Source: Clostridia bacterium (lineage in GTDB: Bacteria; Bacillota_A; Clostridia; Christensenellales; Aristaeellaceae). From it: DNA of 10,522 nt. Positions within the stretch are counted from its first letter, which is position 1; every line of letters begins with the position of its first letter. A program made the translations under genes and the position numbers. The stretch covers positions 1-10,522 of the forward strand of contig JAFQOY010000091.1 in NCBI GenBank assembly GCA_017412025.1. Direction: 5' to 3'. Shown here one piece after another: positions 763 through 3,306 of this stretch. The notes under the pieces are model-generated. The model did not search any database. It was not told where the DNA came from and saw nothing but the letters and a program-made list of their open reading frames with translations.

Positions 763-1854
763 TTACATCTGCGCAAAGAGCAGCCCTGCCAGAGGCGAGA
801 GCGCTACCATCACCAGCGAAAAGCAGAGCGAGGATACGGAAACCAGCGTCGAGCGCTGCGCCGAGGGAAACATATCGTTGAGCTTTGCGTCCGTGCGCAC
901 CTGCAGCAGATCATCCATCGCAGAGGCCAGAAAGCCGCCCGCGCACATGCAATACGGCCTGCCGGAGGCCACCAGCAGGCAGCCAAGCGCCGTGCCGCAC
1001 ATACACAGTGCACCGAGCGTCCGATACCGCATACCCGCAAGGCGAACCGCCAGACGCGCGCCCGCCACGCCGCCCAGGCCCATCACAAACAGCGCAGGCC
1101 CCAGAAACGCCTGCGGCAGCCCGGTGCGCGGCAGCTGCGCCTGCATGAAAAACGCAATCAGGATCGACACCGCGCCGCCCAGCGCATTGAAGAGCATGAT
1201 CCTGCGCGCACGTCCCTCGCGCAGCACAAAGGCAAGCGCGGAGGCAAAGCATGTCCTGATCCGCACCGCCGTGCGTTCCCTGGTCTGCATCTGGTCAAGC
1301 GTCACCTCGCGCAGGCGCAGCGCAAGCACCAGGGCCGCCAGCGCAAAGGCCGCATCCAGCAGGTTCGCCCTTCTGTAACCAAGCCAGAGCGTGAAGCCTG
1401 CCAACAGCGTCGCCGCCGCGCTGCACACGCGGTATATGGACATTTCCAAAGCGCTGTAGCGCAGATAGTATTCATGTTTTCCTTCGCTTTTCAGGCTGTC
1501 ATACGCCAGCGCCTCGCGTGCGCCGGAGGCAAAATTATAGCTGAATGCGCTGAAAACGAGCGCCGCGCACACGCCGTAAAACGAACGGGAGGCAACCATC
1601 AGCAGGGAAGAGACGATCGAGGCCATCTGGCTGAGCGCCATGGAACGCCGCCTGCCAAAGACGTCGGAGATCACGCCGGACGGAATCTCAAAAAGCAGGC
1701 TGGCGATGTGAAACACGCCCTCTGCAATCCCGATCTGCACCATGGAAAACCCGCGGGCATACAGCAGCGCCACCCATGCCGCACCGCCCAGCTGCGCGCT
1801 GCTCAGGGCAGAGATGCCCAGCAGGCGCATCATTTGCTTTCTTAATATCATCAT
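763..1854 (-). CDS. Major facilitator superfamily (MFS) efflux-type transporter
   Basis: The product is 363 residues from ATG 1854, almost entirely hydrophobic helices, consistent with about 12 membrane spans. After the second helix comes the MFS motif A, GVISDVFGRRR at residues 60-70, preceded by FEIPSG, a variant common in drug-efflux-like MFS proteins of Clostridia. A second conserved patch, REALAYDSL, lies in the first half. The role is proton-driven export or uptake of a small molecule at the cytoplasmic membrane; the substrate is not readable, though the attenuator-type leader upstream suggests an inducible drug exporter. Start choice: AAAGGGAG lies ten bases before ATG 1854. The frame is also open to ATG 1920, which has no ribosome-binding site of its own but lies two bases after a leader ORF stop. 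It is not close to Mef by eye. Confidence 0.85.
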   Translation of the reverse strand: MMILRKQMMRLLGISALSSAQLGGAAWVALLYARGFSMVQIGIAEGVFHIASLLFEIPSGVISDVFGRRRSMALSQMASIVSSLLMVASRSFYGVCAALVFSAFSYNFASGAREALAYDSLKSEGKHEYYLRYSALEMSIYRVCSAAATLLAGFTLWLGYRRANLLDAAFALAALVLALRLREVTLDQMQTRERTAVRIRTCFASALAFVLREGRARRIMLFNALGGAVSILIAFFMQAQLPRTGLPQAFLGPALFVMGLGGVAGARLAVRLAGMRYRTLGALCMCGTALGCLLVASGRPYCMCAGGFLASAMDDLLQVRTDAKLNDMFPSAQRSTLVSVSSLCFSLVMVALSPLAGLLFAQM

Positions 1855-1858
1855 AATG

Positions 1859-1898
1859 AAAAAACTCCCTTTCAAATCGTGATGGACTTGAACGGGAG
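1859..1898 (-). terminator. Attenuator terminator in the transporter leader
   Basis: The minus-strand RNA folds CTCCCGTTCAAGTC (1898-1885), loop CATCAC, GATTTGAAAGGGAG (1878-1865): 13 of 14 positions pair (one G·A mismatch, one G·U), followed at once by six Ts (1864-1859). It has the form of an intrinsic terminator, lies upstream of the start codon at 1854, and its 3' arm contains the transporter's ribosome-binding site, so it could block transcription, translation or both. Confidence 0.75.
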
Positions 1899-1922
1899 AA
1901 GCGTATTTCTGCTCAGCCATGA

Positions 1923-2012
1923 TCAGATTTGCGCCAAAACGGGCGCACTTCTCCCGTCACAGGCAGAATACGCTCCTTTTTGGATGCGGATCATTCTCAT
2001 TTTCCAGCCCAT
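1923..2012 (-). CDS. Leader peptide (29 codons) of the transporter attenuator
   Basis: ATG 2012 lies eight bases after GGAGG (2025-2021, within GAAAGGAGG) and starts MGWKMRMIRIQKGAYSACDG, ending in LAQI and TGA two bases before the upstream transporter ATG at 1920. The ORF passes through segments A and B and the small GC hairpin, so ribosomes on it must remodel the attenuator. Residues 4-6 are Lys-Met-Arg, which fits the (R/K)-x-(R/K) motif known to stall macrolide-bound ribosomes. A competing start, ATG 2016, gives a 19-codon peptide MHGLENENDPHPKRSVFCL ending at 1957. The 2012 start has the better spacing (eight bases against four). Confidence 0.5.
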   Translation of the reverse strand: MGWKMRMIRIQKGAYSACDGRSAPVLAQI

Positions 2013-2042
2013 GCATGCGCCCTCCTTTCACTCGTTTGATTC

Positions 2043-2071
2043 ATTATATCACCGCAGCGCCGACAGATCAA
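2043..2071 (-). promoter_or_regulatory. Promoter of the transporter leader (TTGATC-17-TATAAT)
   Basis: On the minus strand TTGATC (2071-2066) and a perfect TATAAT (2048-2043) are separated by 17 bases. The start of transcription would be near 2036, a few bases before the leader-peptide ribosome-binding site. The promoter overlaps the 3' end and stop codon of the upstream acetyltransferase gene. Confidence 0.8.
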
Positions 2072-2709: not shown

Positions 2710-3282
2710 TCAAATGGCGGCGGCCTCTTCGCTCTCAAGGATTTCCCGGGCGATATCGGCAATCCGCTTGCCGGTGTCCATGCTCTTTTTCTGGATATGA
2801 TAGTGCGCCTCCGACTCGCTCAGATGCAGCAGCTCCATCAGCCTGCCCTTTGCGCGCTCGATCACCTTGCGGTCCTCCAGCATCCGCGCAAGCTTCTCCG
2901 CCTTTTTGCGCAGCGCCTGCAGGCGGCCGTCGCAATGGCACGTCGCGCGCACGGCGGACACCAGCGCGTCCGGGCTGAGCGGATTGCGCAGCAGCAGCAC
3001 GTTGCCATGCTTCGCCGGCTCGATTTCCTCGCCCTGCGGCACGATCATCATCACGCTGACCGACTCGCCTGCCTGCTCCGCCAGCTCTGCGCCCGTCATG
3101 TCCTCCAGACGCCAGGTCGTCAGCAGCACGGCATTCTCCTGCTTCAGAAGCTCAAGCGCCTGTGCGCCGCTGTGGCACACGGCGTCCGGCGCGATCCCTG
3201 CAGGCGCGAGCAGCTGCGACAGCTTATCGCAGACGGCCTGCGGCGCGGCAATCATCAGACGGCTTCCACGGAGCTCGGTCAT
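2710..3282 (-). CDS. ANTAR-domain RNA-binding antitermination regulator with degenerate receiver
   Basis: The C-terminal third (residues about 127-182; KVIERAKGRLMELLHLSESE, then a KKSMDTGKRIADIAREIL stretch) is a clear ANTAR domain, which binds paired hairpins in nascent RNA and prevents termination. Before it lies a short coiled-coil-like linker (120-140). Residues 1-110 have the shape of a response-regulator receiver but lack its chemistry: the acidic pair is replaced (LMIAAPQ), the phosphate-accepting Asp position reads TTWRLEDMTG with Thr, and the conserved Lys region reads LLLRNPLS. Regulation is therefore probably not by standard phosphorylation. I chose ATG 3282 because AGGAG is nine bases upstream; the ATG at 3291 abuts it with no gap. 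The gene has its own promoter and terminator. I found no convincing ANTAR target hairpin pair in this window. Confidence 0.85.
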   Translation of the reverse strand: MTELRGSRLMIAAPQAVCDKLSQLLAPAGIAPDAVCHSGAQALELLKQENAVLLTTWRLEDMTGAELAEQAGESVSVMMIVPQGEEIEPAKHGNVLLLRNPLSPDALVSAVRATCHCDGRLQALRKKAEKLARMLEDRKVIERAKGRLMELLHLSESEAHYHIQKKSMDTGKRIADIAREILESEEAAAI

Positions 3283-3306
3283 CTTCTTCATCTCCTATCG
3301 GATCAG

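Follow-up and report, generated by a model that had tools for sequence, protein, structure and literature searches.

The region in front of an MFS transporter gene in the window, by which we mean the whole stretch of 10,522 nucleotides of clostridial DNA that was analysed, raises the question of how a short leader might decide whether that transporter is made. The transporter (363 aa, PF07690, E 3.8e-18) is encoded at 763..1854 on the minus strand, as are all other window features described here. A first-pass annotation had proposed an attenuator with crossing A:A' and B:B' pairings for this region, and the promoter, the segments A, A', B and B' and the terminator that it named were all recovered on the minus strand. 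The promoter (TTGATC-17-TATAAT, 2043..2071) has 10 of 12 consensus bases with a TG preceding the -10 element, overlaps the end of a GNAT gene and lies in the same place in four related loci (L001-L004). A GGAGG (2021..2025) forms the ribosome-binding site of a leader ORF of 29 aa (MGWKMRMIRIQKGAYSACDGRSAPVLAQI and a stop codon, 1923..2012), in which codons 1-13 (1974..2012) encode the conserved part of the peptide (M-x-W-K...K-G) and codons 2-13 are under peptide-level selection. Segment B (ACGGGAGAAG, 1948..1957) lies within this ORF and forms the 5' arm of the predicted antiterminator. Its partner B' (CTTCTCCCGT, 1892..1901), to which it is joined by the ten perfect pairs claimed earlier (1957-1948 with 1901-1892), can also act as the 5' arm of an intrinsic terminator (1859..1898) that ends in six T (1864-1859). 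The 3' arm of this terminator (C) contains GGGAG (1865..1869), the ribosome-binding site of the transporter, 10 bases before the ATG at 1854. Segment A (GAGCGTATTCTGC, 1963..1975) pairs via bulges with A' (GCAGAAATACGCTTC, 1898..1912), and 2% of shuffles match the strength of this pairing (p 0.02). A candidate helix P has its 5' arm (GGGCGCA, 2016..2022) between the leader ribosome-binding site and the start codon and its 3' arm (TGCGCCC, 1941..1947) within the leader ORF.

The leader ORF led by a GGAGG was present as annotated, and its start was corrected, the conserved frame being that of the second of two ATGs (2012-1923). A start at the first ATG (2016), giving a peptide MHGLEN... that stops immediately upstream of B, was rejected because L001-L004 lack a counterpart of that frame. 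Likewise, an in-frame extension of the transporter from an ATG at 1920 was rejected because the aligned homologues begin at 1854, a few of them with one extra residue and one with a 29-residue extension. The fold of the window's leader is better than that of shuffled controls (z -3.74 and -4.81, 0 of 200 shuffles in each case), and the B:B' hairpin alone reaches -32.9 kcal/mol (z -4.22, with 0 of 200 shuffles as good).

The leader is not a peculiarity of the window. A single scan of contigs representing one genome per species, with the family alignment as query, kept 80 of 85 loci under titles that include Butyrivibrio, Pseudobutyrivibrio, Blautia, Lachnospiraceae, Fournierella, Faecalibacterium and uncultured Clostridia, among others. 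The window and 77 of these loci were analysed, leaving out L077, which has a leader, and the partial matches L078 and L079. A gap-free leader from start codon to B was found before the same MFS family in 69 of the 78 sequences (the window and 68 of the 77 loci), so that the leader is conserved in homologous loci, where a lack of conservation had been named as evidence against the proposal. In these 69 the GGG of a core, ACGGGGATAGTGCGCTCTTTTTT (ACGGGAGAAGTGCGCCC in the window), follows the start codon at a distance of exactly 19 codons. Of the nine other sequences, L061 and L063 are described below; the peptide survives in L071 beside a diverged core, core and terminator survive in L019 and the terminator in L066, and L041, L067, L074 and L075 have no leader within 900 bases. 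Altogether 90 distinct leaders were collected. The 22 outside the model set depend on a model of the first 69, with which they were found; L077 and L137 (the latter being the L071 locus) came from the first scan and the other 20 from searches of whole genomes.

The whole-genome counts come from a sequence-only model (R1), whose searches over 40 genomes used strict filters and shared genomes between them. In the family of G009, R1 gave a match at E<=0.01 in 44 of 250 genomes. Fifteen of these reached E<=2e-11; the same MFS gene follows in 14 of them, and a broken start of it in the other (L095). Inspection of the weaker matches in this family covered those with a locus (L109-L123), among which L109, L110 and L116 have an MFS and the remainder appeared to be chance matches or lone cores. 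The order of G003 gave 3 of 200 genomes and that of G010 gave 2 of 197, each count including the centre itself; L125, L126 and L128 have the MFS, and L124 and L127 are by genome and position the L003 and L048 loci. At the level of the class, 17 of 391 genomes matched at E<=0.001 and 11 at E<=7e-7, ten of the latter with the MFS and one (L130) without, and L139 (1.7e-4) also has it. The exact core pattern occurs in 8 of the 391 genomes: as leader plus MFS in L088, L089 and the centre, as a leader alone in L086 and as a lone core in four. R1 matches at E<=7e-7 lie upstream of this MFS family or where the MFS is broken or missing. Leader and terminator are complete in L086/L130, where the transporter is missing, and in L095, where it breaks off after the first codons. 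Members whose transporters share as little as about 41% identity still have the spacing, the peptide and both alternative pairings.

The leader peptides follow the pattern M-x-W-K-x-x-N-[ILV]-x-L-x-K-G. Among the 90 distinct leaders, Trp3 is present in 90 (partly by construction, TGG having been used to place the leaders), Lys4 in 79, Asn7 in 66, Leu10 in 77, Lys12 in 78 and Gly13 in 89. The distance from start to B is 57 bases in 86 of the 90 leaders and 58 in the other 4. In 65 distinct ORFs of the model set, taken as pairs less than 35% different, pN/pS over codons 2-13 was 0.30 in frame versus 1.14 and 1.68 in the other frames, and over codons 20-26 the synonymous sites appear frozen, since pS there (0.107) compares with a pN of 0.167. 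This contrast indicates that the first half of the leader is selected as peptide and the second half as RNA, a split that fits the leaders whose stop codon falls just before B (L100, L104, L107, L131 and four more); the stop lies before B in 8 of 90 leaders and after B in 82. The leader ORF is thus selected as coding and carries a ribosome-binding site, as expected of ribosome-mediated transcription attenuation, and the conserved residues suggest that ribosomes would stall at Lys12-Gly13 or close by. The conserved peptide and the candidate helix P had both escaped the first-pass annotation.

The alternative pairings were compared in the 69 gap-free leaders. As proposed, B:B' and the terminator are mutually exclusive, because B' pairs with either B or C, and one predicted hairpin holds both the terminator and the ribosome-binding site of the transporter, whose GGAG is paired in 69 of 69 leaders (median -16.0 kcal/mol). 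An intrinsic terminator is present between leader ORF and gene, with L108, L061 and L063 lacking the T tract. The median energies of the other pairings are -16.7 kcal/mol for B:B', -14.5 kcal/mol for helix P, which would join codons 22-25 to the ribosome-binding site of the leader, and -11.6 kcal/mol for A:A'. When arms were given the partners of other leaders, in swaps that ignore relatedness, none of 200 reached the own pairs of B:B', either over all 69 leaders or over 25 variant B arms. For helix P the swaps gave 0 of 200 (69 leaders), 1 of 200 (17 variant arms) and 0 of 200 (11 arms with CCC). For A:A' they gave 0 of 200 over all 69 and 0 for seven loci of the Fournierella/Faecalibacterium type, 8 of 200 for the window clade and 9 of 200 for twelve Butyrivibrio-type loci.

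Covariation across the aligned leaders, which had been suggested as a check, gave a divided answer. Changes on both sides were seen in 5 of 10 columns of B:B', 5 of 12 of helix P and 3 of 9 of the terminator. The share of paired cells (90.8 vs 84.8% for B:B', 85.8 vs 83.5% for helix P and 82.3 vs 76.0% for the terminator) exceeded that of 500 out of 500 partner shuffles, in a register that had been chosen for pairing. In a stricter pair count, 7 of 31 cases for B were better, 12 equal and 12 worse, and for helix P 6 of 44 were better, 28 equal and 10 worse, with no gain from co-change; this count left out 8 leaders with no GGAG within 45 bases of the assigned start, all of which except L108 have the GGAG-T tract elsewhere in the sequence. 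On a tree of 94 transporters (leaving out L072, which has a short frame), the B type changed 5 times, with B' changed the same way in 2-3 independent pairs and the opposite way in none, a number too small to support a test. The antiterminator is exclusive with the terminator and conserved by complementarity and partner swaps, with compensatory change weakly shown; it is conserved complementarity together with energy, more than proven covariation, that forms the basis of the antiterminator claim.

A:A' had been put forward as the trap of B, and this did not extend to the whole family. Where chance would give about 3.5 leaders, 22 of 69 reached p<=0.05 against shuffles, 2 of the 5 in the window's clade (the window and L004) among them. 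A:A' is clear in some lineages only; we rejected it as a family-wide competitor and kept it as a lineage-specific one. Helix P, in which the leader ribosome-binding site would pair with the end of the leader, is from its sequence a candidate second competitor. Its pairing weakens in distant members, with L099-L106 retaining 7 to 10 of 12 pairs, and the helix is not formed in the free fold of the window, where a local hairpin, GTGCGCCCGTTTTGGCGC, takes its place.

Taken with the peptide, these pairings make it likely that the leader is a ribosome-mediated attenuator of an MFS exporter, in which a ribosome stopped early in the leader would keep B available. We infer stalling and termination themselves from sequence. 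When no inducer is present, the ribosome would reach codons 16-27 and cover B, or it would depart and B would be trapped by A:A' and perhaps by helix P. B' would then pair with C, transcription would end at T6, and in any read-through RNA the ribosome-binding site of the transporter would stay hidden. A ribosome held early in the leader would leave B free, so that B:B' could form before C is made and the transporter would be transcribed and translated. The inducer is probably a translation inhibitor or another compound that the pump exports.

The effect of ribosome position was modelled by cutting each leader before the 3' arm of the terminator and masking a ribosome footprint codon by codon, with an assumed footprint of -14 to +15 around the P-site. 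Without a ribosome the mean B:B' value over the 69 leaders was 0.40. Masking raised it to 0.88 for codon 1, 0.79 for codon 8 and 0.84 for codon 14, and lowered it to 0.19 for codon 16, 0.00 across codons 17-25 and 0.09 for codon 27. B:B' exceeded 0.5 at some codon of 2-15 in all 69 leaders, at codons 17-25 in none and at codon 27 in 4. The best masking codon was 14 in 21 of the 69 leaders, 7 in 13 and 2 in 11. In the window, B:B' was 0.50 without a ribosome, 0.96-1.00 at codons 9-14, at most 0.23 at codons 3-8 and at most 0.05 at codons 16-27; codons 28-29 of its slightly longer ORF gave 1.0, which implies that a ribosome lingering at the stop codon would also cause antitermination. At full length, the equilibrium fold favours the terminator on average whichever codon is masked (mean >=0.76). 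The model thus agrees with a choice of fold by ribosome position for the nascent RNA and not at full-length equilibrium, so that timing would have to decide.

In this model a stall directly after Lys12-Gly13 would work well, and a stall at initiation would work equally well, since with codon 1 masked B:B' is free to form in 91% of leaders, the same share of the 69 that exceeds 0.5 at codon 14. The model therefore singles out no stall site, and it lends some weight to an initiation sensor, in which compounds would hold the ribosome at the leader start, as with vmlR, and the peptide would be conserved for another reason; vmlR operates with a three-codon uORF (PMC9226507). We consider this explanation unlikely though deserving attention, as it leaves unexplained both the selection on the peptide through codon 13 and the retention of the peptide in L061 and L063. 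Improbable to a greater degree is an amino-acid attenuator of the trp type, with a ribosome awaiting scarce charged tRNA at Trp3 or the Lys codons: masking codon 3 does give a mean B:B' of 0.63, and Trp3 is found throughout, partly by construction, but the leader has a single Trp codon and no amino-acid run, Asn7, Leu10 and Gly13 are kept as well, the gene is an exporter-type MFS and neither a biosynthetic nor an aminoacyl-tRNA gene, and codon 3 in the window gives a B:B' of only 0.05. We likewise give very little credence to an untranslated small-molecule riboswitch or protein-bound leader with an incidental ORF. Codons 20-26 are indeed strongly conserved as RNA and the free RNA already adopts the exclusive folds, yet such a leader would show neither peptide-level selection nor a fixed start-to-B spacing, and Rfam gave no match in the window at the gathering score; at E<=5, over the window and five loci, none fell on the leader strand, and L010 had a chance-level match on the opposite strand (E 3.6). 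Least probable of all is an unregulated, constitutive terminator or insulator between the GNAT gene and the transporter, which would suit the dominance of the terminator in the full-length equilibrium fold but not the spacing, peptide and pairings retained in distant members.

Two Pseudobutyrivibrio loci (L061 and L063, 4880-5000) bear on the ribosome-mediated attenuator from another side. Here the leader, MTWKTVN[LI]HLMKGNVL[SA]PYSL followed by a stop, continues directly into the B' arm with B and the linker deleted, and other sequence stands in place of the T tract (GGAGATCAAAATG, GGAGATTAAAATG). The peptide is thus kept without its RNA half. The remaining hairpin, which 11 and 12 of 200 shuffles equal in folding, hides just the ribosome-binding site of the transporter; with its 5' arm in the leader ORF and no terminator, this is the layout of ermC/cat. 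A T tract is likewise absent from the distant member L108 (34% identity). A second kind of leader, MNGLGY[TI]P[VI]CSSSS..., with a core-like end GGGATTACTGCG[CT]YCTTTTTT, precedes a related MFS (tblastn) in L110 (about 1430-1690), L116 (minus strand) and L144 (1500-1850), and its pattern occurs in 3 of 250 genomes. We tentatively entertain, as a possibility that we hold to be less than even, a new arrest peptide that is read at or after Lys12-Gly13 and senses a specific compound that this MFS family exports across Clostridia. Its output would have switched between transcription and translation in L061, L063 and perhaps L108, and the second leader type would hint that the sensing half is exchangeable and the RNA half stays.

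The transporter family comprises at least 874 detected proteins and the window's member resembles the models for Tet(40) (E 3e-6) and TetA(P) (E 9e-7) only remotely, with scores well short of their cut-offs; no solved structure matched the MFS profile. Directly upstream of the leader in the window lies the GNAT acetyltransferase gene (2049-2606) and farther upstream a gene for an ANTAR-domain regulator (2710-3291). Both recur near the leader in L001-L004 (45-58% protein identity), with the GNAT gene directly before it, and a promoter-like sequence lies at the GNAT gene end in all five loci. In an uncontrolled count, promoter-like sequences were found before 60 of 69 leaders. Downstream of the transporter, a small protein with a Mor transcription activator domain is encoded (258-608, PF08765, E 8.4e-9). 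A lone core-like sequence (e.g. GGGGGTAGTGCGCCCTTTTTT) with no W-K leader occurs in L090, L091 (around 1500), L111, L113 and L120, in surroundings that by eye resemble mobile elements. The viral contigs searched held no relative, 49 plasmid records gave distant partial MFS matches of which none covered 80%, and plasmid searches with one leader (L010) and one lone core (L091) gave no match.

The analogy to established leader-peptide attenuation holds, the present leaders probably belonging to the same mechanism class as bmrB, vmlR and mef(E)L. In Bacillus subtilis, the bmrB leader of bmrCD, which is induced by ribosome-targeting antibiotics, likewise places a leader peptide before a drug transporter and combines a terminator, an antiterminator and a predicted anti-antiterminator; unlike here, it has a 53-residue leader, an ABC transporter, a terminator inside the leader ORF and tested induction (PMC4191407), whereas our terminator follows the leader stop and the gene is an MFS. 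At vmlR of the same species, stalling on a short uORF blocks an anti-antiterminator and both termination and the ribosome-binding site are controlled, but that system (PMC9226507) has an ORF of three codons, one hairpin for the terminator and another for the ribosome-binding site, and an ABC-F gene. The mef(E)/mel operon of streptococci shares an attenuated MFS efflux gene, a leader peptide and a Rho-independent terminator, and differs in its peptide MTASMRLR, its leader structure and its known macrolide inducer (PMC4335068); none of the 90 leader peptides has the MTxSMRLR of the mef(E)L / erm(K)L group. MsrDL and tlrB/yxjB also control a resistance gene by drug-induced stalling on a leader peptide, with other genes and peptides and with known inducers (PMC10314930 and PMC6851288). 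The hairpin of L061 and L063 resembles translation attenuation of ermC/cat in hiding the ribosome-binding site of the gene (PMC4191407), and the window and most relatives differ from it in having a true terminator and a different peptide. Searches of the literature with peptide and core strings and by topic found no such leader in Clostridia, so that within the literature searched the earlier impression of an undescribed attenuator is borne out. The mechanism class is known, and the leader-peptide attenuator family is apparently undescribed.

The leader therefore appears to represent an undescribed, widespread peptide-sensing switch in commensal-type Clostridia that is tied to a single transporter family. 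The conservation of its peptide raises two questions, namely what would hold a ribosome on W-K...K-G and what the pump exports, and the natural deletions suggest a route by which a transcription attenuator may become a translation attenuator.
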